This document shows positions 42,390-59,125 of a stretch of DNA of 59,553 bases, in pieces. How positions within the stretch are numbered: position 1 is the stretch's first letter; the number at the start of each line of letters is the position of its first letter. The stretch covers positions 1 to 59,553 of the forward strand of contig MGXA01000058.1 in assembly GCA_001801215.1 (NCBI GenBank), given 5' to 3'. The DNA comes from Gallionellales bacterium RIFCSPLOWO2_02_FULL_59_110 (lineage in GTDB: Bacteria > Pseudomonadota > Gammaproteobacteria > Burkholderiales > Gallionellaceae). A program made the translations under genes and the position numbers. The notes below the pieces were generated by a model that did not search any database, was not told the DNA's origin, and saw only the letters and a program-made list of their open reading frames with translations.

Positions 42390-44777
42390 ATGAGCGAGCA
42401 TTTTAAAATTGCGATTGTTGGTGGGGGGCCTGGAGGCTTGTCTGCCGCTGCGCGAGCGGCGGAGCTCGGCATTTCCCATGTTCTTCTTGAGGCCGCGCCC
42501 CACATCGCCGATACCATCCATCGCTACCAGAAGGGGAAACTGGTGAGAGCGGAGCCGATGCAACTGCCTTTGCGCAGCGCCTTGAGTTTCTATGCGGGAA
42601 CCCGTGAAAATATTCTGAGAACCTGGCAGCAGGAACTTGCCGAGCTTGGAGTGAATGTGCGCGTGGGTGCGGCGGTTTCCGCGATCTCCGGGCAGTGCGG
42701 CAATTTTCGGATTCCCTTGGAGCCGGGCAAGACGTTGACCGCCGAATTCGTGGTGCTTTCCATCGGGCTGCAGGGCAACATTCGCAAATTGGGCGTGCCG
42801 GGTGAAGACATGCAGAGAGTGCAGTATCAGCTGGACGACCCGGACGAATACAGCAACGAAACGATCATAGTGGTCGGCGACGGCGATGCGGGTGTGGAAA
42901 ATGCGCTCGCACTGTCCAGGCAGAATCGGGTGATTTTGGTCAATCTCCATGAGGAATTCAGCAATTGCGCGGAAGCAAACTTCCAACTGCTGATGACCGC
43001 TGTCACCGAAGGGCATATCGAAACGCGCGTCAGTACCTGGGCCGAGCGCGTCGACACGATTGCAAAAGGCGATTTTCCCGTGGCCTTCGTGGCGCATACG
43101 CCGCAAGGCCTGGAGCGCATCGAATGCCATCGTGTCATCGCACGTCTCGGAGCGGAGCCGCCGCGCAAATTGCTGGAAAATTTCGGCGTGCGCTTTCCGA
43201 ACAGCGATACGGCCTCCGTGCCGCAACTGTCCGAGCAATACGAATCCAATGTGCCGGGTTTGTACATCGTGGGGGCGTTGGCCGGATATCCGCTCATCAA
43301 GCAGGCGATGAACCAGGGTTATGAGGCCGTCGAATATATTACGGGCAATCCCGTCGAGCCTGCCGACGAGGTGTTGCTGCGGGAGAAATTCGCCGGTGTT
43401 CCCAATATTCGCTCGGTCGGCGATGGCATTGCGCTGGTCAGGCGCAATCTGCCGTTACTGGAGTCGCTCACGACGCTGCAATTGCGCGAATTCATGCTGG
43501 ATAGCTCGGTTCTGGCGCCGCGTAGCGGCGAAGTTATTTTTGCGCGGAGCGATTACAACAACAGCTTTTACTCGATCCTGGAAGGCGAAGTCAGCGTTCA
43601 TGTCGAAGGGAAAGACGGTGCCGCTGTTTTTACAATGGGCGCTGGAGACTTTTTCGGCGAGATGGGATTGTTGTCCGGGCGCCGCCGTTCTGGTACGGCA
43701 ATAGCCGGAGAGAATTGCGTGCTTGTCGAAACGCCGCGCCGCTCGATGCTCAAGTTGCTGAATGCGGCGAGCGGTGTGCAGCGCAAGCTGGACGAGGTGT
43801 CGCTCAAGCGGGTCGTGCTGAATTACCTGGATGCGTCGCTCCCGGATAGCGAGCTCGATTATCTCGTTCAAGGCGCCAAGTTCAAACAATATGCGTTTGG
43901 CGAAGTAATCTTCAAAGAGGGCGACAAAGCGGACGGGTTATACATGATCCGGCGCGGTTCGGTTACGGTATCCCGTATGGTTGCGGGAAAAGAGCAGGTT
44001 CTGGCGTATGTCTCCGCAGGCAACTATTTCGGGGAGATGGCTCTGACATCCAACATGCCGCACTCCGCGACAGTGCGCGCGGTATCGCCCACCGATGTGA
44101 TTGTGCTGGAGGCCGAGCATTTCAGGGCAGTGATGGAGCGGAATTCTTCAATGCGCGGCAAGGTTGGCAGCCGTTATCTGGAGCGCATCAGCCAAGGCGA
44201 GCCCAATCCGTCCGGCGAACCCGGCGGGCTGATTAAGTTCCTGATGGATCATGGGGTGGGCGAGGCGACCGATGTGTTGCTGATCGACTATTCGCAGTGC
44301 ATTCGCTGCAACAATTGCGAAAGGGCCTGCGCCGACGTGCACGGTGGAATTTCGCGTTTGAATCGCGGGGCCGGCCCGACATTTGAACAAGTCCATGTTC
44401 CCGTTTCCTGCCGGCATTGCGAACACCCGCATTGCATGAAGGATTGTCCTCCTGACGTGATTCGCCGTTCGGTGCATGGCGAGGTGTTTATCGATGATGG
44501 TTGCATCGGTTGCGGCAATTGCCTGAATAATTGCCCATACGATGCGATCCAAATGGCAGGCACAAGCGAGTACAAGCAACTCACTGTTTGGGAGGCGGTA
44601 TTCGGCAGGCGCAAACACCGGGAAGTCCGGAATGAGGCTGATGCGAATTTGCCCAAAAAAGCGGTCAAGTGCGACATGTGCATGGGTATTATCTCGGGCC
44701 CCGCCTGCGTCCGTGCCTGTCCCACCGGCGCTGCCTTGCGTGTAAGCCCGGAAGAATTTTTCAGCTTTGTCAGGTAG
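42390..44777 (+). CDS. FAD/NAD(P) oxidoreductase fused to two cyclic-nucleotide-binding domains and a four-cluster ferredoxin
   Basis: The 795-residue protein has four parts. Residues 1-330 are a thioredoxin-reductase-like flavoprotein (VGGGPGGLSAA for FAD, VVVGDGDAGVENA for NAD(P)) lacking the CXXC disulfide. Two cAMP-receptor-like domains follow at about 360-480 (FFGEMGLLSGRRRSGTA) and 500-615 (YFGEMALTSNMPHSATV); the second has His where the phosphate-binding Arg usually sits. The C-terminal 150 residues carry four cysteine sets (CIRCNNCERAC, CRHCEHPHCMKDCP, CIGCGNCLNNCP, CDMCMGIISGPACVRACP) for four [4Fe-4S] clusters, as in DmsB/HybA. There is no signal peptide or membrane helix, so it is cytoplasmic. 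It probably moves electrons between NAD(P)H and the membrane partner encoded next, under cyclic-nucleotide control (inference). Confidence 0.88.
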   Translation: MSEHFKIAIVGGGPGGLSAAARAAELGISHVLLEAAPHIADTIHRYQKGKLVRAEPMQLPLRSALSFYAGTRENILRTWQQELAELGVNVRVGAAVSAISGQCGNFRIPLEPGKTLTAEFVVLSIGLQGNIRKLGVPGEDMQRVQYQLDDPDEYSNETIIVVGDGDAGVENALALSRQNRVILVNLHEEFSNCAEANFQLLMTAVTEGHIETRVSTWAERVDTIAKGDFPVAFVAHTPQGLERIECHRVIARLGAEPPRKLLENFGVRFPNSDTASVPQLSEQYESNVPGLYIVGALAGYPLIKQAMNQGYEAVEYITGNPVEPADEVLLREKFAGVPNIRSVGDGIALVRRNLPLLESLTTLQLREFMLDSSVLAPRSGEVIFARSDYNNSFYSILEGEVSVHVEGKDGAAVFTMGAGDFFGEMGLLSGRRRSGTAIAGENCVLVETPRRSMLKLLNAASGVQRKLDEVSLKRVVLNYLDASLPDSELDYLVQGAKFKQYAFGEVIFKEGDKADGLYMIRRGSVTVSRMVAGKEQVLAYVSAGNYFGEMALTSNMPHSATVRAVSPTDVIVLEAEHFRAVMERNSSMRGKVGSRYLERISQGEPNPSGEPGGLIKFLMDHGVGEATDVLLIDYSQCIRCNNCERACADVHGGISRLNRGAGPTFEQVHVPVSCRHCEHPHCMKDCPPDVIRRSVHGEVFIDDGCIGCGNCLNNCPYDAIQMAGTSEYKQLTVWEAVFGRRKHREVRNEADANLPKKAVKCDMCMGIISGPACVRACPTGAALRVSPEEFFSFVR

Positions 44778-44815
44778 GCGGCAAGACACCCGCCCCATCA
44801 TCACCGGAGCTTCTT

Positions 44816-45790
44816 ATGAACCTGTCGCAGTCCTCCACCTTGATAAAGTACAAAAATTACCGGTATTTCAAAATTGCGGGCTTGCTGGTGGCCGTTGCGT
44901 TGGTGGCTTATGTGTCGGTAAAACCTGCCGATAGCCTGTTCTACGGCGGAACCTGGTTAAGTTTCGTGCTGGGCGTTACTTCGGCGCTGATTATAATCGT
45001 GCTGATGTTGTATGGCGTTCGCAAGCGTGTTGCATCAAAAGTGCCCGAGAGGCGTCATTACCGGACAAGCGTCGTACACCAACAAGAAGAACGCAACGCT
45101 CAGGACGATTTTTATGCGCTACATAAGGCAGAACGAAGAAAGCGCGATATCCGGGAAGGCTGGCGTTATGGCGGGACGCTACAGGGATGGCTTTCTGCGC
45201 ATGTATATCTTGGGGCCTCGCTCATCGTGTTGGCTTCGTTGCATACCGGTTTTCAGTTCAGCTGGAACATCCATACATTAACCTATGTATTGATGTTGCT
45301 GGTCATAGCGAACGGATTTTACGGGTTATTTACGTACCTGAACTACCCCGCCCTGATTACCCGGAATATGGGGGAAGATACGCTGAACGGGTTGCTGCTC
45401 AAGATTGACAAGCTTGATGAGTTGGCGCGGATACGCGCGCTCGACTTGCCCGATGAAGTGAACGCGCTGGTATTGAAGGCGCGGCGGGAAACACGGTTGG
45501 GCGGCAATCTGCTTCAACAATTAAGCGGCAGCCAGCATGATTGCCCGACCGACGCGGCGATACTGGGCATACGGCTACTGAGCAAAACCTTGATCGCGGA
45601 CGATCAGCCAAAATTAATGCGCGACCTGTATTCCGTGCTTTTGCAAAAACAAAAACTGGTGTTGCGGGTACGGAATGAAATCAAGATAAAAGCCAGCATG
45701 CAGCTCTGGCTATATCTTCATACGCCGTTATCCGTCGCGCTATTGGCCGCGCTCTTTACCCACATCGTGGCTATATTTTTCTACTGGTAG
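44816..45790 (+). CDS. membrane protein with two His-X13-His pairs, probable diheme cytochrome b
   Basis: The 324-residue protein has about five membrane helices: near 20-38, 45-65, 130-150, 155-175 and the C-terminus. Helix three contains a HVYLGASLIVLASLH pair and the last helix HTPLSVALLAALFTH; each His pair is 13 residues apart, the spacing that holds two stacked b hemes across a bilayer in ferric-reductase- and cytochrome-b561-like proteins. A charged cytoplasmic region lies in between. CGGAG precedes the ATG. It lies 38 bases after the FAD/FeS gene and five bases before the FHA-decaheme gene, so it likely links the two electrically. I do not recognise a named family. Confidence 0.7.
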   Translation: MNLSQSSTLIKYKNYRYFKIAGLLVAVALVAYVSVKPADSLFYGGTWLSFVLGVTSALIIIVLMLYGVRKRVASKVPERRHYRTSVVHQQEERNAQDDFYALHKAERRKRDIREGWRYGGTLQGWLSAHVYLGASLIVLASLHTGFQFSWNIHTLTYVLMLLVIANGFYGLFTYLNYPALITRNMGEDTLNGLLLKIDKLDELARIRALDLPDEVNALVLKARRETRLGGNLLQQLSGSQHDCPTDAAILGIRLLSKTLIADDQPKLMRDLYSVLLQKQKLVLRVRNEIKIKASMQLWLYLHTPLSVALLAALFTHIVAIFFYW

Positions 45791-45795
45791 CCAGA

Positions 45796-47418
45796 ATGAT
45801 CTCTTGCCTGTTGATTCGAGTCTCGCGCAACCAGCAAGGCTTGCCGGTTCTCAAGGAAAGCGCCCTTGCCGGCGAATCGCTCCAGATCGGGCGGGGCGCA
45901 GCCTGCAAGATTCATCTCCCCGACCATCGTGTCGGTTTGCTCCATGCCACCGTGAGGCGATCGGAAGATGGGGCGCTGTATATTGAGGGAGAAAATGGCG
46001 CGACCATCAAAATCAACGGTGCCGCCGAGCAGAGCGCCGCTCTTTCACCCGGGTTGCGCATCGAAGTTGGCCCTTATTTGCTGGTTGTTGAACCTGTGCC
46101 GGATGGCCGCGATATCGCCTTGTCGGTTGAAATGGCGCACTCGCTGCAGGAGAAGGCTGCAACATGCCGGACCGTGCCGGTCACGCTGGCAGAATTGGGC
46201 TTGAGCAAGCGCAAGCTCGGCTTCAGTTTGGCGTCCGGTATTCTTTTCTTGTTCCTGTTGTTGCCATTGCTGGCGAGCACTTCAACGACATTTGATAAAT
46301 GGCAGGCTACGCTTCCCGTCATCCTGACCGAATTGTGGAATCCCGGCCCATTAACCGGCGGGCATAGTGTATTTGGCGCGAAATGCACAACCTGCCACCA
46401 ACAGGCTTTCCGGGCTATTTCCGACGATATCTGCGCGGAATGCCATAAACAGGTCGCCAAGCGCCTGAGGGAAGATGATTTGCATGCGCGGATATTCAAG
46501 GATGTGCGCTGCACGGACTGCCATCAGGATCACAGGGGGAAAGCGGGGTTGGTGCTGCATGATTCATTGAAATGTGTAGCCTGCCATGGCGATATCAAGG
46601 GTAAATATGCTCGCACGGAGTTTGACGACGTGCGCGATTTTGCCACGGATCATCCGCCGTTCAATATCACTTTTCCAGATGGCAAAAATGTCGTACATGT
46701 CCGGCAGGACGACAAGGGAAAGCTGGTCGAGAAACCCGGACTCAAGCTGAACCATCAGGTTCATTTGGACAAGAAGGGCTTGTTGAGCCCGAAAGGCAAT
46801 ACTGTTTTGGCGTGCCGCGACTGTCACAGGCTCGAAGAGTCCGGAGCGCATTTTGCACCCATGACCATGAGAAAAACTTGCCAGCAGTCACAGTGTCACG
46901 TGCAGTATTTCATTGAGCCTGTCGAGGAAGTTGTGCCCCATGGATCGGAGCGCGAGGTATTGAACAGATTGCGCGAATTGAATGCCAGATGGCTGGCTGG
47001 TTCGGCGGAGAATATGGCGGCATGCAAACCTGAGAGCGGGGCTGGCATGGCCGCCAGCCACACCCTGGGATGTGTCGATGATCTTGCGCGGAAGTATGCT
47101 GCGACGTTTTTCAAGGAAAATCTCGAATGCGGCCAATGCCATGAAATCGAACCGAGCGGAAATAACGATGTTCCATGGAAGGTGACGCCGCTGCATATCA
47201 ACCGCGATTACCATCCGGTCGCCGTGTTTGCGCACTCCCGGCATGACACGGTTGACTGCACGGACTGCCACGACAAGGCGAATTCGAAGCCAAGCGCGGA
47301 GATTGCCATGCCGGCCATAGAAAAGTGCCGCGAGTGCCATGCCGGCAATCGATCCGTCAAAGGGAAAATCAAAAGCACCTGCGATAGCTGTCACCGGTTT
47401 CATCGAGCCGCGGAGTAA
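45796..47418 (+). CDS. FHA domain - membrane helix - periplasmic decaheme cytochrome fusion
   Basis: In this 540-residue protein residues 1-105 form an FHA-like domain (LQIGRGAACKIHLPD...LLHATVRR) in which the usual Ser of the phosphothreonine pocket (VSRxH) is replaced (VGLLH). One membrane helix follows at about 141-160, then a periplasmic domain with nine CXXCH motifs (CTTCH, CAECH, CTDCH, CVACH, CRDCH, CGQCH, CTDCH, CRECH, CDSCH) and one CX4CH (CQQSQCH), ten hemes in all. The topology puts FHA in the cytoplasm and the hemes in the periplasm, suiting a role like CymA or NrfH but phospho-responsive. It ends the three-gene inner-membrane module. Confidence 0.85.
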   Translation: MISCLLIRVSRNQQGLPVLKESALAGESLQIGRGAACKIHLPDHRVGLLHATVRRSEDGALYIEGENGATIKINGAAEQSAALSPGLRIEVGPYLLVVEPVPDGRDIALSVEMAHSLQEKAATCRTVPVTLAELGLSKRKLGFSLASGILFLFLLLPLLASTSTTFDKWQATLPVILTELWNPGPLTGGHSVFGAKCTTCHQQAFRAISDDICAECHKQVAKRLREDDLHARIFKDVRCTDCHQDHRGKAGLVLHDSLKCVACHGDIKGKYARTEFDDVRDFATDHPPFNITFPDGKNVVHVRQDDKGKLVEKPGLKLNHQVHLDKKGLLSPKGNTVLACRDCHRLEESGAHFAPMTMRKTCQQSQCHVQYFIEPVEEVVPHGSEREVLNRLRELNARWLAGSAENMAACKPESGAGMAASHTLGCVDDLARKYAATFFKENLECGQCHEIEPSGNNDVPWKVTPLHINRDYHPVAVFAHSRHDTVDCTDCHDKANSKPSAEIAMPAIEKCRECHAGNRSVKGKIKSTCDSCHRFHRAAE

Positions 47419-47905
47419 CGTGCCGCAGTATCCGGAATGGGGCAGGGGCCGAGAGCAATATGGCTTGCGACAGCATATGGCACAGCAAGCAAAGATCCGC
47501 CTGCCCGGTGTTACCTTGGAGCGCCGATCCGAAAAAATGCCCCGCATTGGCACAGCGTTTCCGCCGCTGGCTTTTGCCTCCATGGAAGAGGCGGGCGGCA
47601 GAAGATGCGGCGGTTGACAAGCGATTCGCGGATAGGGTATCGTCGCGCCCGGTGCCGTAGCGAGGATTTGTTTGGCGGCATTTTTCCGGTTAACACCTTT
47701 GTGTCTGTTTACGTTGAAGCTGCGGGAAATCGGCCCGGCCCACCTCCAGTGAGAACCGTACCAGGCTTTCCGGTGGCCGCGAAAAAAACATAAGTTCGAT
47801 TAAGACCCTCGCTATAGATGGGTTCGGGCATGGCGAACCGGATTTTTGTTCAGTAAAAATTCTAAGGCTTGTCAGAAAAACGCTGGATTGGGGAGAGTAA
47901 TTAAG
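47419..47905. other. intergenic region before the monoheme cytochrome gene
   Basis: These 487 bases contain no convincing gene. TTGACA at 47614-47619 with TATCGT at 47638-47643 (18-base spacer) is a candidate promoter, so the porin-cytochrome genes may be transcribed separately from the inner-membrane module. A short frame with GC-rich composition in this stretch lacks any homology I recognise. Confidence 0.4.
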
Positions 47906-48301
47906 ATGCAAATGAACCATCGGACACGCACCAATATCCTGGCCGGAATGATGGCTGGCGCAATTATCCTTTTCTTTCCGGTAGCGGCGCTTGCCGACGA
48001 TAACGGCCAAAAGGCTCAGGCCGGGGAGCAGATCGATGCCTACGAGGCAGTGGCCCTTGCGAATAGGGATAATTGCTGGAGATGCCATCATCTGACCAAG
48101 AAAAAAGAAGGACCTTCCTACAAGGCCGTTGCGGAAAAGTACCGGGGCAAACCGGAAGCCATCGATAAGCTGGTCAAGCACATCACCCTTGGCAAAGACG
48201 TGATCAAGCTTTCCGACGGACATGAAGAATTACATAAGTTCGACAAGAAACGCCCTCCTGAAGAAATCAGGAACTTGATCCTGTATATTCTCGCCCAGTA
48301 G
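47906..48301 (+). CDS. periplasmic monoheme c-type cytochrome without methionine ligand
   Basis: The 131-residue protein has a signal peptide (about 1-30, ending AALA) and one CWRCH heme motif at 57-61. It resembles class I c551-like cytochromes in length and in its C-terminal helix (PPEEIRNLILYILAQ), but the predicted mature protein has no methionine at all; the place of the usual Met loop holds GHEELHKF, so the second axial ligand is probably His. GGGAGAG lies eight bases before the chosen ATG. It is a candidate shuttle between the inner-membrane decaheme and MtrA, comparable in position to MtoD of Sideroxydans. Confidence 0.85.
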   Translation: MQMNHRTRTNILAGMMAGAIILFFPVAALADDNGQKAQAGEQIDAYEAVALANRDNCWRCHHLTKKKEGPSYKAVAEKYRGKPEAIDKLVKHITLGKDVIKLSDGHEELHKFDKKRPPEEIRNLILYILAQ

Positions 48302-48367
48302 GCATGGATATGCCATGGGCGGATCGTCAGCGTCTTCCAGTATCGAAAATAATAAAGTAGAAAAATA

Positions 48368-49363
48368 ATGAAACTCTCAAGAAAATTTCTAGTTTTGTGC
48401 GCATTCATCGCGGGAACTGGTTGGGCTTCGGCCTCGCTGGCCGCGCCCCCGCTGCCGCCGAATGCGGATTTGCCGCCATTCAATGACAAGACTTGCACCC
48501 GGTGCCACGACGAAGGCGAAATGAAACCGATCTGGTCTCTTTATCAGGCAAGGCATGGCGTCAGGACGGATGCCCATGCCCCAAACTGCCAATCGTGCCA
48601 CGGCGGGAGCAAGAAACACCTGTACGGTGACCCTGACCCTAAAATCAAGGGCAAGCAGCCGCCGGATGTCGTATTCGGCACGCGCGCGAATCCCGACGGC
48701 TTCCCGAAGAGTGAAGTGGACAGGCAAAATGCCTCTTGCAGCGCCTGCCACGATAAAGATTCGAAGCGCTCGCACTGGCAGGGAAGCACGCACCAGAGCC
48801 GCGGACTGGCATGCGTCTCGTGTCACGAAATCCACACCTTCAACGATAAAGTGCGCGACAAGCGCACCCAGCCCGAAGTTTGCTTCAAATGCCATAAGGA
48901 GCAGCGCGCGCAAATCAACCGGCCTTCCCGCCACGCGATTCCGGAGGGCAAGGTGGCATGCTCCGATTGCCATAACCCGCATGGTTCGGTCGGGCCGAAG
49001 CTGATGGTTCGCGACAGCATCAATGCGACCTGCTATACCTGCCACATGGAAAAACGCGGGCCATTCGTGCATAACCACGAGCCTGTCGACGACGACTGCA
49101 CGAACTGCCATAACCCGCACGGCACTCTCGAGCCGAACATGCTGAAGGCGCGCACCCCCTTCCTGTGCCACTCCTGCCACACGCCGCATGGCGCGGTGCA
49201 GCCTTTGCTGGCCGGCCAGGCGGGCGCCCCCAACATCGTGGGTTACGGCAACGGAACCTATATCACCCAGGGCAGGGGTTGCCTGAACTGCCATACGCAG
49301 GTGCATGGCAGCAATAACCCGAGCCTGACCGACCCCAAGAATGCGCAATTCTTCTTCCGCTGA
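48368..49363 (+). CDS. mtrA: MtrA/MtoA/DmsE-family periplasmic decaheme cytochrome c
   Basis: The 331-residue protein has a signal peptide (cut near SLAAPP) and ten CXXCH motifs (CTRCH, CQSCH, CSACH, CVSCH, CFKCH, CSDCH, CYTCH, CTNCH, CHSCH, CLNCH), matching the length and heme count of Shewanella MtrA (333 residues). In the Mtr, Mto and Pio systems this protein plugs the outer-membrane porin and carries electrons through it. The MtrB-type gene follows within 20 bases, confirming the pair. Direction of flow (metal reduction or Fe(II) oxidation) cannot be read from sequence. Confidence 0.95.
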   Translation: MKLSRKFLVLCAFIAGTGWASASLAAPPLPPNADLPPFNDKTCTRCHDEGEMKPIWSLYQARHGVRTDAHAPNCQSCHGGSKKHLYGDPDPKIKGKQPPDVVFGTRANPDGFPKSEVDRQNASCSACHDKDSKRSHWQGSTHQSRGLACVSCHEIHTFNDKVRDKRTQPEVCFKCHKEQRAQINRPSRHAIPEGKVACSDCHNPHGSVGPKLMVRDSINATCYTCHMEKRGPFVHNHEPVDDDCTNCHNPHGTLEPNMLKARTPFLCHSCHTPHGAVQPLLAGQAGAPNIVGYGNGTYITQGRGCLNCHTQVHGSNNPSLTDPKNAQFFFR

Positions 49364-49382: not shown

Positions 49383-51602
49383 ATGAAAACAACCAGACAA
49401 CAATTTGGCTTTACTCCGAAACTTCTTGCCCTCATGTTGCTCGTGGCCTTTGGGGCGGCGCAAGCCGAAGAGGAAGAGGATGATGAGGATGATGGAATTA
49501 CGCGGCTCACCGTGCATGAAAACACGATAGGCGTCGGCTTGGGCGCAGTTGCCCGCGATAGCAAGGACAGGGCGATCTTTGGACAGTACAACGGCCTGCG
49601 CAAGGATGACGTCAACCTGTTGTTTGATGCCGATATCGAGAAGCGCTCGACGGAAGAGGGAACCCTGTTCGAGTTAAAAGTCAAGAATCTGGGTCTCGAC
49701 AACCGGGAAGCCAAAATCGAGTTCGAGAAGCAGGGCGACTATGAAGTTTATGCCATCTTCAGCGAAATTACCCGCCGCGATATCCACACCATCAACACCG
49801 GCCTGCTGAATGCCGAGACAACTGCCCCAACCGTGGTGAGCCTTGCCGCACCCGGAGCGGGGACTGACCTGAACTTGGATATCAAGCGCAGGGGGATCAC
49901 CGTCGGCGCGGAAAAATGGCTTACTCCAAACCTCTTTTTCGAGGCAAGCTTCAAGAACGAAGACAAGGATGGGGCGCGCTTGTCAGGAATAGGCCTCGCC
50001 TGCAGCACGGGCGGAAATTTCACCCCCATAAGCCGCTTTTTATGCGGCGACACCGGGGCGGTGCTGATGTTGCCCGAACCGATAAACTACACGACCAAGC
50101 AACTCGATGCCAAACTGAATTTTTCGGGCGAAAATTTCCTGCTGAGCGGCGGTTATTACGGCTCGTTTTTTAATAACTCGAACGGCTCGTTGAACCCGGC
50201 AATAAGCGGCAATCTGTGGAATCCGAATGGCTCGCCTCTCGATACCGGCGCCGCACCCGGCAGCACCCTGGCGGGTTATTTGCAGCAACCCTTTGCACTG
50301 CCGCCCGACAATCAGGCGCACCAGCTTTTCGTATCGGGCAACTATGCCTTCTCCCCGGCCACACGCGCAACTTTCAAATATGCCCATACCCATGCCACGC
50401 AGCACGACAGCTTCGCCGGCATGGGACTGACGGGAGCACCGGCAGGTGTCGGCAATCTCGGCGGGGTTGTGGACAGCAGCATAGCCCAGGTCGGATTAAC
50501 GGCGCGGCCCACAGCAAAGCTTTCCATGCTCGCCAACCTGCGTTACGAAGAAAAAAGGGACAAGACCCCGCTTGCCTGGTATGACTCGGACAGCAGCGGT
50601 GCGGTGCGCTATACGAACGACTTGAATTCGTCGCGGAAGGTTGCCGGAAAACTGGAAGCGAGTTACCAGTTGCCGGACAACTACCGGGCGACCGTGGGCG
50701 TCGATTACGCATCGGTGCACCGCGACCGGCCTGTAGCCACCTCCAGCATATCTGACCTCGCGCTTGCGCTGACCTCGCTGCGCGAGGAAACGCAGGAACT
50801 GGGCTATCGAGCCGAGCTGCGCCATTCGATGTCCGAAACTTTCAATGCCTCCGTCAGCTTCGGGCAAAGCCAGCGCGACGGATGGGAATGGCTGAACCTC
50901 GTACCCGGCACGCCGACCGTTCCGGATAGCGCCATCTACAATGCCAGCGGCACCTTCCCGATGACGATGGCTGACCGCCAGCGCGACAAATTCCGGCTGT
51001 CGGCGGATTGGCTGGCGACCGAAGACCTATCGCTGCAGTTCACCGTCGAAAATCTGCGGGACGGCTATACGGCCCCGTCCGAAAAAGGCGTGCATGGCGC
51101 CCGCACCATAACCTACGGCGTGGATGCAGCCCTGAAACTGTCCGAGGAATGGAGAGCGACCGCTTATGCGAACCGCGGCAGCCAGACCCTCAACCTGGAT
51201 CACTCGGTCGGATATATCGCCGAACTGGAAAACGTCAGCACCAGCCTGGGGATGGGCGTAAGCGGCAAGCCCAGCGACAAGCTGGAAGTGGGCGGAGACC
51301 TGTCGTACCTGGACGACGCTAACCGCTATACGCAAAGCATGAGTTCGGGCGCGCCGCTGGCCGGAGGAGGCTTGCCGGACATCACTTATCGCATGACCAG
51401 CCTGAAGCTTTACGGCAAATATGCGCTGGAGAAAAATGCCGATCTCCGTATCGATATGGGATATCAGAGACTGATGTTCGACGAATGGACCTGGGAAAAC
51501 AACGGGGTTCCCTTTGCCTATTCGGACAATACGACCGTTTCGATGCAGCAACACCAGAACGTGACTTACCTCGGGGTAAGCTATATTTTCAAATTCAGGT
51601 AG
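49383..51602 (+). CDS. mtrB: MtrB/PioB-family outer-membrane beta-barrel sheath
   Basis: The 739-residue protein has a signal peptide (ending GAAQA) followed by an unusual acidic stretch (EEEEDDEDDG), then alternating amphipathic strands rich in Tyr, Asp and Asn to the C-terminal aromatic end (NVTYLGVSYIFKFR), typical of a large barrel. MtrB-type porins surround MtrA. The N-terminal CXXC pair known from Shewanella MtrB is absent, as in PioB/MtoB-like members. An ATG two codons upstream (49377) is possible; neither has a clear ribosome site, so coupling to mtrA is likely. Confidence 0.92.
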   Translation: MKTTRQQFGFTPKLLALMLLVAFGAAQAEEEEDDEDDGITRLTVHENTIGVGLGAVARDSKDRAIFGQYNGLRKDDVNLLFDADIEKRSTEEGTLFELKVKNLGLDNREAKIEFEKQGDYEVYAIFSEITRRDIHTINTGLLNAETTAPTVVSLAAPGAGTDLNLDIKRRGITVGAEKWLTPNLFFEASFKNEDKDGARLSGIGLACSTGGNFTPISRFLCGDTGAVLMLPEPINYTTKQLDAKLNFSGENFLLSGGYYGSFFNNSNGSLNPAISGNLWNPNGSPLDTGAAPGSTLAGYLQQPFALPPDNQAHQLFVSGNYAFSPATRATFKYAHTHATQHDSFAGMGLTGAPAGVGNLGGVVDSSIAQVGLTARPTAKLSMLANLRYEEKRDKTPLAWYDSDSSGAVRYTNDLNSSRKVAGKLEASYQLPDNYRATVGVDYASVHRDRPVATSSISDLALALTSLREETQELGYRAELRHSMSETFNASVSFGQSQRDGWEWLNLVPGTPTVPDSAIYNASGTFPMTMADRQRDKFRLSADWLATEDLSLQFTVENLRDGYTAPSEKGVHGARTITYGVDAALKLSEEWRATAYANRGSQTLNLDHSVGYIAELENVSTSLGMGVSGKPSDKLEVGGDLSYLDDANRYTQSMSSGAPLAGGGLPDITYRMTSLKLYGKYALEKNADLRIDMGYQRLMFDEWTWENNGVPFAYSDNTTVSMQQHQNVTYLGVSYIFKFR

Positions 51603-51878: not shown

Positions 51879-54542
51879 ATGAAATCCATGTTTGCTCGAC
51901 TGGGTCTGCTGGCCCTGTTTATCACCGCGCTGGCGGGCTGTAGCGGCGGCGGAGGCGGTTCCGGTTCGGAAGCACCGACAACACCGACAACACCGACAAC
52001 ACCGACAACACCAGCGGTAACCTCACAACCCCCAGCAGTCGGGGCTGGCAATGCGATTACCAACATTTCCACGATGACGCCAGACGCATTCGCGGATATC
52101 AAGTTCGACACTGCAAAGGCCAAGATCACCGGCGCAACCGTCAGCAGCGCGCCCAAGGTCTACTTCAACCTGGTCGACGCCTCCGGCAACCCGATCACGG
52201 GCATGACCACCAACAACCTGCTTTTCGCCATCGCCAAGCTGGTTCCGGGTACGCCCGGCAGCAGCAGCTTGCCGCAAAGCGTGCAGAGGTGGGTCAGCTA
52301 TATGGTGATCAACCCCGCTACGGGCGCGCTCGGCAAGCCCGGCACGGATTCCGGCGGCAAGCTGACGGACAACGGCGATGGCTCGTACGTCTATGAATTT
52401 GCCCAGGATCTCGCCACGGTCAAGGCGCGCGTCGATGCCGCCACGGCAACGGCCAGCCAGAACAAGGCAGACCTGGACGACCTGACCTACGACGCGAACC
52501 TCACGCACCGCGTCGGTATCCAGCTCAGCGGCGCCAAGCCCGGCTTTGGCACCGACAGCTCGGTCACCGGCGTAATCAAGAACCCGATAGACCTGATCTT
52601 CGACTTCGTCCCGGCCACCTCGACCGAAGTCGCGCAGACCGAAACCGACGGCACGAAGCAGCGCAACATCGTCGACATCAGGAACTGCTTCACCTGTCAC
52701 GTCAAGTTCACTTTCCACGGACGCCGGTCACCGACCACCGGGCAAGGCACCATTGATGCCACGTTCGGGATCGGCGGCGGTCGCCAGGACACCAGGTTCT
52801 GCGTGCTCTGCCACAGCGACCAGCGCAAATTCGGCGTCGCCAATGCGGCCATCACCGGCACGACCATCGCAGCGGGCGACAGGATGAAGGACTTCTCGAT
52901 GAAGAACCTCCCCGTCTGGATCCACAAGATCCACATGGGCGAGCATCTGGTGCTGCAAGGCTATAACGCCAGCAATGTCATGCTCAACCACATCAAGTTC
53001 CCGCAGGACGTGAGGAACTGCACCAAGTGCCACTCCGACAACGACGGCGCGACGGGCGGCAACACCGTGGCACAGGCCGACAACTGGAAGAACAAGCCTA
53101 GCCGCCTAGCCTGCGGCGCATGCCACGACGGCATCGACTTCGCGACCGGCACCGGCACCAGCGTAAAGGGCGGTGCCACCGGCCACATGGGCGGTGCTCA
53201 CCAGACGGATGACAACTGCGCGCTGTGCCACTCTCCTGGCGTCATCGCGACGCAGCACACGCCCGTGTTGACGTTGACGAACGCGACCACCGGCGTGCAA
53301 ACGCACTTTGCGGCGGTCGAGAGCAACCTCCCGACCGGCGCGAAGAAGGTCGCCTACGATCTGAACAGCGTCACGCTGAATACCGACAGAAATCCGGTAT
53401 TCAAGTTCAAGATACTGCTGGATGGCACTGCGGCAGCCCTGAGCACAACCACCGGCCTGCCTACTTCCGGCAACTATTCGGGTAACGGGCCAACGTTCTA
53501 CATCGCATATGCCCAGGATCAGGATGGCATTACCGCGAAAAACGACTGGAACGTGACCAGCACCAGCGGCCAGGCTCTGGCGACGATCGCGGCGGCGGGA
53601 GGTTTGACGGGCCCGGATGCCAACGGCTATTTCACGGCAACGTACGTGCCAACGACCAATGCTACTACTGGTGTCGTCACAGCGGCCCCTGCCGTGCCGG
53701 CCGGCGCGAAGAAGGTGACCGGCCTGATGATCGACGGGTTTAGCCAGACCGATGTGGCGGGTTACACGGCGATCAAGGTGGTGCCGGATGCGGTGCTGAA
53801 ACCGGTTTCTGCGAATGACGCGCGCCGCACCATTACCAGCAAGGAGCGTTGCAACAGATGCCACGAGAAACTGGGGGTATTCACCACCGCCAACTTCCAT
53901 GGCGGCGTGCGGAACAATCCGCAGGTATGCGCCTTCTGCCACGACAACAAGACGCGCAGCACAAATGCGGGATGGTCCGCCTCTTCCAACTACTTCTACC
54001 ATGCGATTCACGCAGCCGGCAAGCGGACGGAGGACTTCACGCGGAACCCGACTTTCAATTTCCAGGACATCGGTTATCCGGGCCTGTTGAGAGAGTGCCG
54101 TCAGTGCCACGAGCCGAACACCGTCAACTTTGGCGCTGCTGCGAGCAAGGCGGCGGCTGAAAGCGGCCTGCTGTTCCCGGTCGTTGCCTCGGGAACCATT
54201 CATGCGACCAACCCCATTTCCCCGTATCTTGCTCAGGTTGGGGTCGCACGGGGCGATAATCTTGGCACTGCCACGAGCGGGACTGCGTTGCTGAATTCGC
54301 CGATCCTGCATGCCTGCTTCGCCTGTCACGATACGACGGCGGCGATTTCGCACATGAAGGCCAACGGTGGCGACTTCTATGAAGCCCGTTCCGTTATCGA
54401 CGCCAAGGACGGCAACGCCGACGGCACGCTCACCAGCCGCGAGCAGTGTCTGGTATGCCACGGCGCGGGCAAGATCGTGGATGTCGAAGTCATGCACAGG
54501 TCGCCCGCAGGCCTGACGACGGCGGATCGCGTGACCCCGTAA
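51879..54542 (+). CDS. MtrC/OmcA-family decaheme outer-surface lipoprotein cytochrome
   Basis: The 887-residue protein has a lipoprotein signal (ALAGC, lipid-bearing Cys21), a Gly/Ser run, a TPT repeat linker (about 32-45), and a non-heme N-terminal domain to about residue 260. Ten CXXCH motifs follow (CFTCH, CVLCH, CTKCH, CGACH, CALCH, then CNRCH, CAFCH, CRQCH, CFACH, CLVCH), five plus five around a second beta-rich domain, the layout of MtrC/OmcA/UndA. It should sit on the cell surface and exchange electrons with minerals or metals. GGGGG precedes the ATG. The family name is clear; assignment to MtrC or OmcA is not. Confidence 0.92.
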   Translation: MKSMFARLGLLALFITALAGCSGGGGGSGSEAPTTPTTPTTPTTPAVTSQPPAVGAGNAITNISTMTPDAFADIKFDTAKAKITGATVSSAPKVYFNLVDASGNPITGMTTNNLLFAIAKLVPGTPGSSSLPQSVQRWVSYMVINPATGALGKPGTDSGGKLTDNGDGSYVYEFAQDLATVKARVDAATATASQNKADLDDLTYDANLTHRVGIQLSGAKPGFGTDSSVTGVIKNPIDLIFDFVPATSTEVAQTETDGTKQRNIVDIRNCFTCHVKFTFHGRRSPTTGQGTIDATFGIGGGRQDTRFCVLCHSDQRKFGVANAAITGTTIAAGDRMKDFSMKNLPVWIHKIHMGEHLVLQGYNASNVMLNHIKFPQDVRNCTKCHSDNDGATGGNTVAQADNWKNKPSRLACGACHDGIDFATGTGTSVKGGATGHMGGAHQTDDNCALCHSPGVIATQHTPVLTLTNATTGVQTHFAAVESNLPTGAKKVAYDLNSVTLNTDRNPVFKFKILLDGTAAALSTTTGLPTSGNYSGNGPTFYIAYAQDQDGITAKNDWNVTSTSGQALATIAAAGGLTGPDANGYFTATYVPTTNATTGVVTAAPAVPAGAKKVTGLMIDGFSQTDVAGYTAIKVVPDAVLKPVSANDARRTITSKERCNRCHEKLGVFTTANFHGGVRNNPQVCAFCHDNKTRSTNAGWSASSNYFYHAIHAAGKRTEDFTRNPTFNFQDIGYPGLLRECRQCHEPNTVNFGAAASKAAAESGLLFPVVASGTIHATNPISPYLAQVGVARGDNLGTATSGTALLNSPILHACFACHDTTAAISHMKANGGDFYEARSVIDAKDGNADGTLTSREQCLVCHGAGKIVDVEVMHRSPAGLTTADRVTP
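51973..52008 (+). repeat. 9-bp coding tandem repeat (TPT linker)
   Basis: Four perfect copies of CACCGACAA encode the repeated Thr-Pro-Thr linker just after the lipid-bearing Cys region. Unit length is a multiple of three, so copy-number change alters linker length without a frameshift. Confidence 0.9.
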
Positions 54543-54599
54543 TTCGCAGTTGGTTGTAGCGGCGACCGGGGGCGCGCCCCGGTCACACGAGCAGCAAAA

Positions 54600-54633
54600 A
54601 ATAACCCGGATGTGGCGGCACATCCGGGTTATT
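54600..54633 (+). terminator. terminator after the first surface cytochrome gene
   Basis: A perfect 15-bp stem AATAACCCGGATGTG / CACATCCGGGTTATT with a GCGG loop is followed by CTTT. A shorter GC-rich stem (GACCGGGG/CCCCGGTC, about 54563-54583) lies just before it. Confidence 0.8.
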
Positions 54634-54942
54634 CTTTGGTAAGGCGGCGAAAATATCGCAGGGCGCATTCCGTGCGCCAACGGCAACATGCATGGAATGC
54701 GTCCTGCGTATTTTCCCCGGATTGTCCGTCAGGCCGCAAACTCCTCCCGGCCTCCCCTTGTGCGAGCATCCGCTGCGCGGATTGCCTGCTTACCCCACTT
54801 CAGGGGAGGAGTTGGGGAGGAGGAGCGGCTCGGTTCTCCCCCTGATAAGGGGGTTAGAGGGGGTTTTATCTGGCCGGATCGCTATAAGCTCCGCCATTAA
54901 CGTACATCAACGTACATCGCAGTTAAACCCGGAAGGAGTTTT
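54634..54942. other. repeat-filled gap before the helix-hairpin-helix gene
   Basis: It holds an imperfect inverted repeat (CGCAGGGCGCATTCC at 54658-54672 against GGAATGCGTCCTGCG near 54696-54710) and a C/G-run hairpin region (about 54780-54865, TCTCCCCCTGATAAGGGGGT), related to the repeat inside the permease gene. CGTACATCAA occurs twice just before the next gene. No gene is seen. Confidence 0.5.
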
Positions 54943-55398
54943 ATGAAACGCTATTTTATTTGCGCAGCCCTGGCTGTGCTGTTGCTGGGCACAGGTTCAT
55001 CCTTTGGCGCCGGGCAAAAACCCGTTGCGGACGACGATGAGGCGAGTGCAAACCCTGCCATGAAGAGTGTCGATGCCAGCAGGAAAGATATCGCCGAGAG
55101 GCGCAAGACCGCCGCGAAAATCAAGCTGATCGACATCAACAGCGCGAGCGCGGCGGAACTCAAGAAGCTTCCCGGCATCGGTGACGCCGAAGCGCGCAAG
55201 ATAGTGGCGGGCCGCCCCTACGGCAGCAAATTCTGGCTAGTGACCAACAACATCCTGCTCGAAGGCACCTACTCGGGCATCAAGGACAGGATCGTCGCCC
55301 GGCAACCCTTCAAGGACGGCGACAAGAACGCGGAGATATATAAAAAGTTGAGCGAAAAGAAAACGGCTGAGGAGCTGAAGGCGGGCGGTAAGCAGTAG
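54943..55398 (+). CDS. secreted ComEA-like helix-hairpin-helix protein
   Basis: The 151-residue protein has a signal peptide (ending SSFGA), a charged linker and a helix-hairpin-helix domain at about 62-115 (IDINSASAAELKKLPGIGDAEARKIVAGRP), then a Lys-rich tail. ComEA-type domains bind DNA or protein in the periplasm. It has a strong AAGGAG site. Its position between two surface cytochrome genes suggests a structural or assembly role in the same system rather than competence; that is inference, and no cysteine or heme motif is present. Confidence 0.8.
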   Translation: MKRYFICAALAVLLLGTGSSFGAGQKPVADDDEASANPAMKSVDASRKDIAERRKTAAKIKLIDINSASAAELKKLPGIGDAEARKIVAGRPYGSKFWLVTNNILLEGTYSGIKDRIVARQPFKDGDKNAEIYKKLSEKKTAEELKAGGKQ

Positions 55399-55588
55399 CA
55401 ATTTTGTGGCGGGCTCTGCGCGCGCTGCCGGGGCTTTGGTCCCTTGCAACCAAGGCGCACCCCTTGCTGGTGTTGTCCGCCGGACATGGAAAGCGGTGTC
55501 GGGCGGAGCCCACCCAGCCGGGCTTCTTTTATTCGTCAGGCCGGAGTGCTACCATGCGCGCATTCAATTTGAATTCAGAGGTGAAATC

Positions 55589-55846
55589 ATGGCTGGCATG
55601 AGTATTCGTGGTTTGGACGATCGGGTATTGGCCAGGCTTAAAAGTCAGGCCGAGCAAGAGGGCAGCAGCCTAAACAGTTTGGTATTGCGTCTGCTGCAAG
55701 GCGCAGGCTCGGACAGGCGCCCCGGCGCATTGCAAAAGTTTGATGACCTCGATACCCTGGCGGGAACCTGGAGCAAGCAGGAAGCACTGGCCTTTGAACG
55801 CAACACGGCAGCGTTTGCCGAGGTTGACGCGGCACTGTGGAAATAA
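55589..55846 (+). CDS. VapB/FitA-like antitoxin
   Basis: The 85-residue protein starts MAGMSIRGLDDRVLARLKSQ, a ribbon-helix-helix DNA-binding N-terminus of the FitA/Arc type, and continues with a helical tail that would wrap the toxin. A GAGGTG site precedes the ATG. The toxin gene begins four bases after its stop. An A/T-rich near-palindrome (ATTCAATTTGAAT, about 55562-55574) just upstream could be its operator. Confidence 0.85.
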   Translation: MAGMSIRGLDDRVLARLKSQAEQEGSSLNSLVLRLLQGAGSDRRPGALQKFDDLDTLAGTWSKQEALAFERNTAAFAEVDAALWK

Positions 55847-55849
55847 GCC

Positions 55850-56260
55850 ATGCGCACCATCGCGCTGGACACCAACGCCTACGCCGCCTTCAAGCGCGGC
55901 GATGCTGCAATTGTCGCCGTGCTGCAACATGCGCCCAGCATCATTGTGTGCGCCACGGTATTGGGGGAGTTGCTGGGTGGCTTCGCTGCCGGTAAGCGGG
56001 AGAGCGTCAATCGCAGCGAGTTGACGCAGTTTATCAACGTGCCGCGCGTGAAGGTGGTTCCCATCACAGCGGCTACTGCCGATCTGTATGCGCTGGTGTA
56101 TGCCGTACTGCGCCGCAAAGGCCGGCCCATTCCCACCAACGACCTGTGGATTGCCGCCAGTAGCCTGGAACATGGAGCCGCGCTGTTGACGCTCGACACG
56201 CATTTCCAAAACATTGATGGCCTGCGCGCGGGGGCACGGCTGGAGGAGTTTATTCCGTGA
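55850..56260 (+). CDS. vapC: PIN-domain ribonuclease toxin, VapC family
   Basis: The 136-residue protein shows the PIN acidic residues: Asp in IALDTNAYAAF, Glu in TVLGELLGGF, Asp in PTNDLWIAA and Asp in LTLDTHF. VapC toxins cut tRNA or rRNA and are held inactive by the cognate antitoxin encoded directly upstream. The pair sits inside the electron transfer locus, between the helix-hairpin-helix and the second surface cytochrome genes, and may help retain it. Confidence 0.9.
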   Translation: MRTIALDTNAYAAFKRGDAAIVAVLQHAPSIIVCATVLGELLGGFAAGKRESVNRSELTQFINVPRVKVVPITAATADLYALVYAVLRRKGRPIPTNDLWIAASSLEHGAALLTLDTHFQNIDGLRAGARLEEFIP

Positions 56261-56280
56261 TGGTTTCGCCTTCCGGGCTC

Positions 56281-56361
56281 TGCCCGCGCAGGCGGGAACC
56301 CGGTTAAAACAAGAAGCTGGATATCGCCTTCGCGGGCATGACGAATAATCAGCGCCTCCTT
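56281..56361. repeat. palindromic repeat, copy 2 (GAATAATCAGCGCCT end)
   Basis: Homologous to 17209-17292: both share CCCGCG-AGGCGGGAACCC, a CTGGAT spacer, CGCCTTCGCGGG and ATGACGAATAA-TCAGCGCCT. The left end present in copy 1 is missing here. Confidence 0.7.
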
Positions 56362-56800
56362 AGAGCCAAACCTCTTGCAGGAGCGCAATTTATTACGCGA
56401 TTGCTCCCGATGAATCGCCCGATAAATCAAGCTACTGCGGTCAAGCTCATGCAGCCTGATGGGTTATTTGCGTTCATGGTGTTGAACCGGCATTGCAGGG
56501 GCGAATGAATCACGTTATCCGTCATGGACGGTGACTGGTGTTGTATTAGGATGTGCTTCATTAAAAAAAGGTACTGTCTTTCCGAAAAAATCTAAGTTAG
56601 AATCCGGCGACCTTCGAAAGAGTTCCGCCAATGTTGTTCCCGTAACGGGCTGAAATTGGCAGATTTTTCGAGGTTCAGGAATCGCTGTAGTGTGCGATTG
56701 CAGGTATCAAGCGGGACCGGGGGGGGTGAGGGGGCGTGTTTATGCGCGCTTTTTTGGTCTGAATTCGGTCATTGTAGTTTCGACAAGGGGAGAGAAAATA
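56362..56800. other. leader region of the second surface cytochrome gene
   Basis: These 439 bases precede the second decaheme lipoprotein gene. I see no gene. The region is moderately A/T rich around 56560-56610 (AAAAAAAGGTACTGTC, AAAAAATCTAAGTTAG), where a promoter would be expected, but no pair of hexamers is convincing. A strong AAGGGGAGAG site lies just before the start. Confidence 0.35.
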
Positions 56801-59125
56801 ATGAAATTCAAGTTCATACGACACGCCCTGCTGGCATTGTTTGTCGTCGCGCTGGCAGCTTGCAGCGACGGCGATGATGGCGCGGCAGGACCGGCGGGCG
56901 CCACAGGCGCTACAGGCGCCACAGGCGCTACAGGTGCAGCAGGCTCAGCAGGCGCTGCGGCGGACAACTTCAAGGTCAGCAATTTCCACGGCGAAGCCGC
57001 GCTGGAGGCAGAGCATCTGGCCACAGCCGGCCAGCTCATTGTAAACACCACCATCACCGGCGCCAGCGTTGCCGCTGACGGCACCGTGACGGTCAATTTC
57101 ACGGTGAAGAAGAAAGACGGCACGGCGGTGACCGACCTCAATACTGCAGTGCCTACTGGTGTGACGGCTCCGATAGCCGTATCCGCCACCGTTGCCTATC
57201 TTGACGCTTCCAACAACTGGGTGCCGTACTTCCAGAACACAGAGGATTCCGGCGCCTTCACCGCCGCCTGGAAGGCCGGCGAAGCGGCCGCCTTTGCGGC
57301 CAACGGCAAGACCATCGGCAACATCACCGGTCAGGCCACCACCAGCACGACGACCGTCACGAACCTGGGCGGCGGCAACTACTCGCTGGTACTGGCCAAG
57401 AAAATAGTGGGCCAGGTTGAGCCGAACACCGCCAACACCAACGATCTGGCCAACGGCGAGACGATAGCCTACGATGCGTCGCGCACGCACCGCGTGTCCC
57501 TGCAGCACGGTGGGCACAACGGCTACACCGCCAACGCCGAGCTGAATTTCGTACCCAACGGCACTGCCGGGAACGGATCGCGCAACATCGTATCCACCAC
57601 GGCTTGCAACCAGTGCCACAAGAAGATCGAAATCCACGGCGGCAGCCGCTTCAGGATCGAGACTTGCGTGACCTGCCACAACCCGACCAACTTCGACTCG
57701 TCCAGCGACGTGACGATGGACGCCAAGGTGCTGTTCCACAAGATCCACATGGGTTCCAGAATGGTCAAGGGATTGAAGATCGGCCACCGCGGCAACACGG
57801 TTGACTATGGCCATATCGGCTTCCCGGCGGACGTGCAGAACTGCCAGAAGTGCCACTACCAGCCCCAAGGTGAAACCCTGGCCGACGTGAACAACTGGAA
57901 GGAAAAACCGAGCCGCGCGGCGTGCGGTTCCTGCCACGACGACGTCGATTTCGCGACCGGCACCAACCACCCGGGCGGCGCGCAGAGCACCGATGCAGCC
58001 TGCACCTTCTGCCACGGCTCTTCCGGCACGCAAACTGCCAACGGCCAGGCGCCGGCCCCCATTCCGGATGTGCATAAGGTCGTACGCAGCTACGACTACA
58101 CGACGGACATCAGCATGACGCCACCCGCCAACGGCACCCACTATGTGGCGGGCGAAGCGCCAGTGGTGACTATCGTTCTGAAGAAGGACGGCGTCGCGAT
58201 CGACCATACCACGGTGACGCAAGCAGCCAACAGCAACACTTACCTGTTCGTGAGCGGCCCGAGGGCGAGCCGCAAACCGGTGCTGACCACCCAGGCGGCA
58301 CTGCATGCCGTACAGAAGGAAGGCACCGCCAACGGCACCTACGCCAATAACGCGATCTACAAGCATACCGACCCGACGCAGGACGATCCGAAAATCACCT
58401 GGAACACCGGCAATATCCAGTACCAGCTCGATGCGATCCCGGCGGGCATGAAGTCCGGCACCTACGTCGCCTATGTGTCTGCGCATGATAACGCGAACGC
58501 TGTCGGCGTCGATGGGGTGGACTTCATCACCTTCCAGGTCGGCACGGCCACGGAAGAGAAGAAGATCGCGACCAACTGCAACGACTGCCACGGAAAACCA
58601 GCCGAAGTCGCGGCTGACACGACCTCTCTGGCTATGGATAACGTGATGCACGGCAACCGTCCGTTCAATGTCGATATTTGCGGCAACTGCCACGACTATA
58701 CGGCGCAGCGGGTGGCGAAGCTCGGTTCGGAAGGCACCCTGTGGACCCAGGGCGGCGCCAACAACATGGGCTTTGGCGCACAGCCGATCTCCAAGCGCGT
58801 TCACGGCGTGCACTTCGGTTCCAGCGTCACTTATCCGTTCCAGATCCACGCCACCTACGGTGCGCATTACCAGTATGTCACCTTCCCGCAGGACGTGAGG
58901 AACTGCGAGAAGTGTCATCCGGCCAGCACCACCAGCGGCACGTGGAAGACCAACCCGAACAGGCTCGCCTGTAACGGTTGTCACGACTCCGACTCGGCAG
59001 CGGCGCATACCGCGACCATGACCTGGGATCCGACTCCGTACTTCGACAAGACGGGTGCGGGTTATACGAGCGGCCCATTCAGCGGCGATGAGCGCGAAGC
59101 ATGCGCTACATGTCATGCCGACTAA
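56801..59125 (+). CDS. second MtrC/OmcA-family decaheme lipoprotein cytochrome with collagen-like linker
   Basis: The 774-residue protein has a lipoprotein signal (ALAAC, Cys21), then a Gly-X-Y collagen-like segment (GPAGATGATGATGATGAAGS, about 28-47), an N-terminal beta domain and ten CXXCH motifs (CNQCH, CVTCH, CQKCH, CGSCH, CTFCH, CNDCH, CGNCH, CEKCH, CNGCH, CATCH) arranged five plus five. It is a paralogue-like companion of the 51879-54542 product but differs in linker and in the region between pentaheme domains. It probably shares the cell surface with it, as MtrC and OmcA do in Shewanella. A terminator follows. Confidence 0.92.
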   Translation: MKFKFIRHALLALFVVALAACSDGDDGAAGPAGATGATGATGATGAAGSAGAAADNFKVSNFHGEAALEAEHLATAGQLIVNTTITGASVAADGTVTVNFTVKKKDGTAVTDLNTAVPTGVTAPIAVSATVAYLDASNNWVPYFQNTEDSGAFTAAWKAGEAAAFAANGKTIGNITGQATTSTTTVTNLGGGNYSLVLAKKIVGQVEPNTANTNDLANGETIAYDASRTHRVSLQHGGHNGYTANAELNFVPNGTAGNGSRNIVSTTACNQCHKKIEIHGGSRFRIETCVTCHNPTNFDSSSDVTMDAKVLFHKIHMGSRMVKGLKIGHRGNTVDYGHIGFPADVQNCQKCHYQPQGETLADVNNWKEKPSRAACGSCHDDVDFATGTNHPGGAQSTDAACTFCHGSSGTQTANGQAPAPIPDVHKVVRSYDYTTDISMTPPANGTHYVAGEAPVVTIVLKKDGVAIDHTTVTQAANSNTYLFVSGPRASRKPVLTTQAALHAVQKEGTANGTYANNAIYKHTDPTQDDPKITWNTGNIQYQLDAIPAGMKSGTYVAYVSAHDNANAVGVDGVDFITFQVGTATEEKKIATNCNDCHGKPAEVAADTTSLAMDNVMHGNRPFNVDICGNCHDYTAQRVAKLGSEGTLWTQGGANNMGFGAQPISKRVHGVHFGSSVTYPFQIHATYGAHYQYVTFPQDVRNCEKCHPASTTSGTWKTNPNRLACNGCHDSDSAAAHTATMTWDPTPYFDKTGAGYTSGPFSGDEREACATCHAD
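56897..56932 (+). repeat. 9-bp coding tandem repeat (Gly-Ala-Thr linker)
   Basis: Four copies of GGCGCYACA alternate C and T, forming two 18-bp units that encode GATGAT twice in the collagen-like linker. Copy-number change would keep the frame. Confidence 0.85.

Follow-up and report, generated by a model that had tools for sequence, protein, structure and literature searches.

The described systems closest to the outer part of the locus analysed here are the MtoAB/MtoD/CymA (ImoA) system of Sideroxydans lithotrophicus ES-1 and that of the Gallionellaceae MAGs with MtoAB and MtrC, seven Gallionellaceae MAGs with MtrC being reported in the part of PMC10734462 available to us. According to the available portion of PMC13390432, MtoD of ES-1 interacted in vitro with neither MtoA nor ImoA, unlike the monoheme cytochrome PmcA, and in Shewanella MtoD and PmcA were each able to connect CymA with MtrA. 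In iron-oxidising Sideroxydans CL21, mtoD and a PCC3 inner-membrane gene were upregulated (PMC12442390, available in part).

For the inner part of the locus, the nearest comparison is with the porin-cytochrome systems PCC3 and PCC4 of He et al. (2017). In the accessible text of that paper (PMC5566968), a pair of WX3HX13H motifs (TM3 and TM5) and an SGXXG motif (TM4) mark 47 PCC3/PCC4 inner-membrane proteins, for which two b hemes are proposed, a likeness to FRD/NOX diheme domains is drawn and a quinone-active role is hypothesised; the diheme role and the tie to porin-cytochrome systems are thus already proposed there. PCC4 is described in the same text as having 4-, 5- and 10-heme cytochromes, with a PF13247 Fe-S gene upstream of the inner-membrane gene in subgroup II. 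In addition, Table 1 of PMC10734462, a source available in part, lists cluster 403, a 'Forkhead-associated protein' with 10 hemes, in 27 of 87 Gallionellaceae FeOB. Here we describe a locus in which a widespread PCC4-like, probably trans-inner-membrane module (genes A, B and C), and not an Mtr-specific entry, stands beside a known outer module, with whose conduit it may exchange electrons.

Gene content of the window

The window, that is, the whole stretch of DNA analysed, is the entire contig C58 (59553 bases) of a genome of 2.81 Mb in 112 contigs. On the 5' side, the locus (Table 1) is preceded by trigger factor, Lon and a PpiD/SurA-like gene, so that its site resembles ordinary chromosome. 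On the other side, the contig itself stops 428 bases past K, and since the window is this whole contig, the term 'complete', applied to the locus in an earlier note made from the sequence alone, cannot be claimed. The gene list of that note agrees with the open reading frames and Pfam domains, and every redox gene lies on a single strand, as it had stated, but the helix-hairpin-helix protein H, the ribbon-helix-helix/PIN pair and the 487-base gap between C and D were missing from it. Its count of 41 c-heme motifs was reproduced (C, nine CXXCH and one CX4CH; D, one; MtrA, G and K, ten apiece), far above shuffled residues (500 shuffles per protein; mean CXXCH at most 0.08, maximum 2). The top match of a promoter scan falls in the C-D gap, the total number of matches not being above that in shuffles.

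Table 1 Features of the redox locus, with positions in the window.
Feature	Position	Strand	Basis
A: oxidoreductase domain of FAD/NAD(P) type, a pair of cNMP-binding domains and, C-terminally, a 4Fe-4S region (four Cys groups); predicted cytoplasmic	42390..44777	+	Pfam, 16 Cys invariant in 8 homologues
B: probable diheme b-type cytochrome of the inner membrane (IMP of PCC3/PCC4 type), with two WX3HX13H	44816..45790	+	motifs, published signature
C: N-terminal FHA domain, single membrane helix (141-159), C-terminal decaheme part (9 CXXCH + 1 CX4CH)	45796..47418	+	Pfam, motif count
Gap of 487 bases between inner and outer gene sets	47419..47905	.	sequence
D: MtoD-like monoheme cytochrome c of class I, lacking Met beyond residue 30	47906..48301	+	motif count, PDB match
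E: MtrA/MtoA-type decaheme	48368..49363	+	Pfam, motif count, PDB match
F: MtrB/PioB-type outer-membrane barrel	49383..51602	+	Pfam
G: MtrC-like decaheme, lipoprotein-type signal (LAGC)	51879..54542	+	Pfam, motif count, PDB match
H: secreted helix-hairpin-helix protein, ComEA-like	54943..55398	+	Pfam
FitA-like ribbon-helix-helix antitoxin-like gene	55589..55846	+	Pfam
PIN-domain toxin-like gene	55850..56260	+	
K: second MtrC/OmcA-like decaheme, lipoprotein-type signal (LAAC)	56801..59125	+	Pfam, motif count

The inner genes A, B and C

Protein A combines Pyr_redox_3, two cNMP_binding and 4Fe-4S domains, the PF13738/PF07992 and Fer4 families scoring above cut-off, and aligns over almost its entire span, from the FAD to the FeS region, in the relatives retained. 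It also contains PF13247 and is encoded directly upstream of B, as is the PF13247 protein of PCC4 subgroup II in the accessible text of PMC5566968. Identification of A as a thioredoxin reductase was also considered: the only CXXC spacings begin at residues 637 to 761, inside the FeS region, so that the usual disulfide of such enzymes is not seen.

In B, His129, 143, 153, 302 and 316 are invariant in 27 homologues, and 25 of these 27 share a pair of WX3HX13H motifs, among them the window protein, where W125-H129-H143 and W298-H302-H316 fall in the third and fifth long helices of an AlphaFold model (mean pLDDT 82.6). The SGXXG motif is present in 24/27, the window protein having NGXXG (NGFYG) at this place. 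In its two WX3HX13H motifs, B bears the inner-membrane-protein signature of PCC3/PCC4, as given in the accessible part of PMC5566968, and by its motifs is probably a diheme cytochrome b. It resembles the NOX/ferric reductase and b561 diheme proteins in its two HX13H pairs, but differs from them in that the cytochrome b561-type Pfam match, found at E <= 0.01 in 13/27 homologues, is below the curated cut-off in the window protein, and in that Foldseek with the model of B returned no match at E <= 0.001.

Protein C matches the FHA domain (22 bits, cut-off 20.7) and cytochrome c7/c3; it is without an N-terminal signal, its one hydrophobic helix following the FHA domain. Its domain name and heme number are those of cluster 403 in the available part of PMC10734462, to which it is likened by description alone. 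In the literature searched, which included few subscription journals, an FHA domain named as such was not found paired with a multiheme cytochrome. Judged from their sequences, A, B and C together carry the domains expected for a trans-inner-membrane electron module, with predicted use of NAD(P)H. The view of the earlier note that the inner genes differ from the usual entry is borne out.

The outer module and an unlinked CymA-family gene

The outer part had been assigned to a known Mtr/Mto-type system, and an MtrB barrel, an adjoining MtrA decaheme and MtrC-like decahemes are indeed all present. F, the sole MtrB match of this genome, hits PF11854 (MtrB_PioB) with E 3e-124 and 416 bits (cut-off 23). 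E contains 10 CXXCH and ends 19 bases before mtrB, and its top PDB match is chain A of 6r2q (E 1.3e-60), which we take to be the MtrCAB structure. Both G and K have MtrC/MtrF domains II/IV, with PF22113 above cut-off, and their lipoprotein-type signals suggest a location at the cell surface; PDB matches of G are MtrF and OmcA. The top PDB match of D is 4xxl (Cytochrome c class I; E 7e-24), presumably MtoD of S. lithotrophicus ES-1. D is thus homologous to this bis-His monoheme protein and, like Table 1 shows, without Met beyond residue 30, but in the family genome G042 a closer relative of 4xxl (E 7e-58) is accompanied by a D-like paralogue (E 4e-30).

MtrB scored above the Pfam cut-off in 13/60 family genomes, and the mtrB neighbourhood was inspected in 10 of the 12 others that bear it. 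A D-like monoheme gene lies just 5' of mtrA in eight of these 10 regions, and a cymA homologue immediately 3' of mtrB in four, while in a fifth, G024, it lies past mtrC and a helix-hairpin-helix gene. The gene order of G024 is the nearest to that of the window (D-mtrA-mtrB-mtrC-HHH-cymA, with a kinase/regulator pair on the opposite side), and the helix-hairpin-helix protein that follows its mtrC is a counterpart of H (45% identity). With the window MtrC as query (E <= 1e-20), matches were found in 3/60 family genomes, only the window genome having A-B-C as well. The FitA-like/PIN toxin-antitoxin-like pair sits between G and K (55589-56260). The outer module D-E-F-G is like MtoAB/MtoD of ES-1 and of the Gallionellaceae MAGs with MtrC, but the window differs from these in being without a cymA homologue and in its extra MtrC/OmcA-like gene and toxin-antitoxin-like pair.

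Although tblastn gave no match to a CymA homologue within the window, a NapC/NirT (CymA-like) gene is found on contig C33 (E 8e-70), 51-56% identical to cymA of the mto loci in five relatives, which refutes the notion that the organism has no CymA. It adjoins a kinase/regulator pair that shares 65% and 79-81% identity with its counterpart at the mto loci of G024 and G050, where the pair is a flanking one. A CymA-type entry is thus present but unlinked, and the product of this CymA-like gene may serve MtrAB. This segment of C33 (L142:2705-8813) holds the regulator/kinase pair, a diheme cytochrome and the cymA homologue, an mto-associated set away from mtrAB.

A-B-C in the Gallionellaceae

Full-length C is present in 8/60 family genomes and A (E <= 1e-100) in the same eight, with A-B-C contiguous in every one. 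Conservation of the inner genes beside mtrAB across the family, which the earlier note had proposed to look for, was not seen: among the eight carriers, mtrAB adjoins A-B-C only in the window, and in G042 a cymA-mtrB-mtrA-mtoD cluster lies on the same contig about 7 kb away, on the opposite strand. Some carrier contigs are short, that of G049 being 7.5 kb and that of G052 stopping about 550 bases after C. In three of the eight (G049, G052 and G059), two of which are listed as 99% complete, no MtrB match was found genome-wide. MtrB above cut-off occurs in 5/8 carriers vs 8/52 other genomes (Fisher p 0.009), with p 0.026 when either the window genome or G036, whose MtrB is a contig-edge fragment, is left out and 0.075 when both are; these values are only a guide, as the genomes are related and the statistics ignore phylogeny. 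In other family genomes (loci L034, L032 and L035), weak matches to C (about residues 134-257) lie by proteins weakly resembling the FAD domain of A, perhaps a distant paralogous set.

Wider distribution and partners of A-B-C

A scan of named genomes gave at least 570 confirmed stretches, of which the best 80 were retained; they reach no further than 10 kb from A, many being shorter, and some belong to the family set as well (L037, for instance, is G042, with mtrB at the locus edge). In these best 80 of at least 570 loci, tblastn detected B in 51, C in 61, an HbpS-like lipoprotein in 33, a porin-like protein in 34, an LVIVD-repeat decaheme in 39 and a c554-like cytochrome in 35, while MtrA, MtrB, MtrC and K of the window matched in 0/80, many loci being cut by contig ends and a divergent MtrB being able to escape. 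The genes recur in two orders, A-B-C-HbpS-porin-decaheme and C-HbpS-porin-decaheme-c554-A. The earlier note had held that wide occurrence of the inner genes without porin-cytochrome genes would count against it; they are indeed widespread without Mtr genes seen, but 48 of the best 80 carry one or more genes of a different porin-like/multiheme set. The idea that A-B-C belongs specifically to Mtr loci is rejected, since mtrAB is adjacent in 1/8 family carriers and the Mtr queries of the window matched none of the best 80 named loci, which extend at most 10 kb from A and are often cut short.

One example of the HbpS-like lipoprotein, porin-like protein and LVIVD-repeat decaheme is L112:14929-22373, a conserved set with A-B-C that has equivalents in 33 to 39 of the best 80 of at least 570 loci; it occurs under Lysobacterales, Nevskiaceae and Burkholderiales titles and may be related to PCC4 or represent another porin-cytochrome system. 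In eight of the same best 80, a DUF1924 monoheme cytochrome (L038:5657-6073 and relatives, the Pfam assignment being of the L038 member only) lies near A or A-B-C. A is adjoined by B and C in Methylotenera oryzisoli La3113, Lysobacter sp. CAU 1642 and Alcanivorax sp. 1008, among others.

As in PCC4, the neighbours of A-B-C in its relatives include a porin-like gene and multiheme cytochromes, here a c554-like protein and two decahemes, PCC3 and PCC4 being compared by published description and not by sequence. The c554-like protein has four CXXCH and one CX4CH in 21/21 relatives, so that five hemes, a PCC4 number, are possible; the window differs in that its cytochromes have 10, 1, 10, 10 and 10 hemes and its adjoining barrel is MtrB. 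The decaheme-LVIVD protein recalls the Geobacter Ext operon (ExtI porin, ExtM), that of L047 matching the NCBIfam model of ExtM (E 6e-21), but at 74 bits, against a cut-off of 800, it is not a member. Geobacter ext, in the available part of PMC5877670, has ExtO/ExtP (Rieske/b) and not A-B-C, and the ExtM-like gene is not in the window.

At class level (369 genomes), 16 genomes have A and 13 have the porin-like family, with 12 in common (Fisher p 2e-18); in 8/12, the two genes share a contig, 4-18 kb apart. This co-occurrence indicates that, as a rule, the module accompanies a multiheme system that includes a porin-like protein, although 4/16 genomes with A, that of the window among them, are without the porin-like family, and its query, which matched 13/369 class genomes, had no match in 60/60 family genomes. 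MtrB was above cut-off in 34 class genomes and at E < 1e-50, a limit of our choosing, in 28, the scan scoring no more than 2 to 3 candidates in each genome. At that limit, MtrB is present in 4/16 genomes with A vs 24/353 (p 0.026; 3/15 and p 0.09 without the window genome); at the Pfam cut-off, the p values are 0.049 and 0.14, respectively, phylogeny being ignored.

In a quick ML phylogeny built from 81 A proteins, with the midpoint root for drawing only, the window falls inside a 27-row group (SH-aLRT 99) of mostly Gallionellaceae and Methylophilaceae titles, Methylotenera included, and clusters there with G042 and G037 (support 90). No porin-linked gene was seen by tblastn in this clade, within loci of at most 10 kb and many shorter, vs at least one in 48 of the remaining 54 rows.

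A-B-C as a unit, its porin-like tie and its placement beside mtrCAB were not found described in the literature searched, which comprised few subscription journals and no supplements, some of the sources being available in part. The accessible portion of PMC11475568 holds no LVIVD, ExtM, PCC4, Lysobacter or Methylotenera, and that of PMC12442390 no 'cyclic nucleotide'.

Discussion

The results described above reveal that the genes and neighbourhood on which the earlier note had built a single pathway are real and unusual, but lend no support to one dedicated locus, as A-B-C stands beside mtrAB only here among eight family carriers. In our preferred reading, to which we give a probability of about 0.5, two separately inherited modules lie side by side, A-B-C being trans-inner-membrane and C probably exchanging electrons with MtrA. 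In the predicted path, A would relay electrons in the cytoplasm among NAD(P)H, FAD and successive 4Fe-4S clusters, in one direction or the other, and B would carry them across the inner membrane via two b hemes. C would be anchored by its one helix, with the FHA domain in the cytoplasm and ten periplasmic hemes carrying electrons, and the cNMP-binding and FHA domains suggest that the flow may be switched by signals. D-E-F-G, perhaps with H, and K would form the outer conduit of the MtoD/MtrAB/MtrC type, which C would probably meet at MtrA, either directly or via periplasmic cytochromes, beside the unlinked CymA-type route.

It is also conceivable, though we hold it to be less likely, that A-B-C works here independently of MtrAB, with other periplasmic cytochromes or another conduit, that the adjacency is due to chance and that the unlinked CymA serves MtrAB. 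This would agree with the 27-row clade holding the window, in which A-B-C occurs, as in Methylotenera, with no porin-linked gene seen beside it, with the lack of an MtrB match in three of the eight family carriers, two of which have a listed completeness of 99%, and with the C33 CymA-family gene, whose kinase/regulator pair is that flanking mto-mtr in G024 and G050; the 487 bases between A-B-C and D point the same way. The enrichment of mtrB speaks on both sides, with p 0.009 over all carriers but 0.075 without the window and G036, and the tight linkage of A-B-C with mtrAB in G042 as well as in the window argues against mere chance. To a second alternative we give similar weight: B would be quinone-active, as He et al. 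proposed for the PCC3/PCC4 proteins, and the module would trade electrons with the quinone pool, the FAD/FeS protein being a side input or regulatory. The fit of B to the published motif, with its hypothesised quinone-active role (accessible text of PMC5566968), and the b561-type Pfam matches (E <= 0.01) in 13/27 of its homologues, the window's being under the curated cut-off, are in its favour, yet A accompanies full-length C in 8/8 family genomes and is conserved almost over its full length, from FAD to FeS, in the retained relatives.

That A-B-C serves chiefly as a sensor, of redox state or of a second messenger, and not as a respiratory path appears very improbable, since the cNMP-binding and FHA domains that suggest it are outweighed by the four FeS groups of A, the five invariant His of B, the ten heme motifs of C and the porin-like/multiheme genes near A in 48 of the best 80 of at least 570 loci. 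Going beyond the preferred reading of two modules side by side, we speculate, as an unlikely extension, that A-B-C is a regulated NAD(P)H-linked module swapped among unrelated conduits, usually that of the porin-like protein and LVIVD-decaheme, freed in a Nitrosomonadales clade and recruited to MtrAB here and in G042.

How electrons cross the inner membrane and how NAD(P)H is generated in iron-oxidising bacteria is an open question. If A-B-C forms a direct link from NAD(P)H in the cytoplasm to the multiheme cytochromes of the periplasm, electrons would have a route that bypasses the quinone pool, and should the module indeed be swapped among conduits, bacteria with Mtr would gain a quinone-independent link from NAD(P)H to the cell surface.
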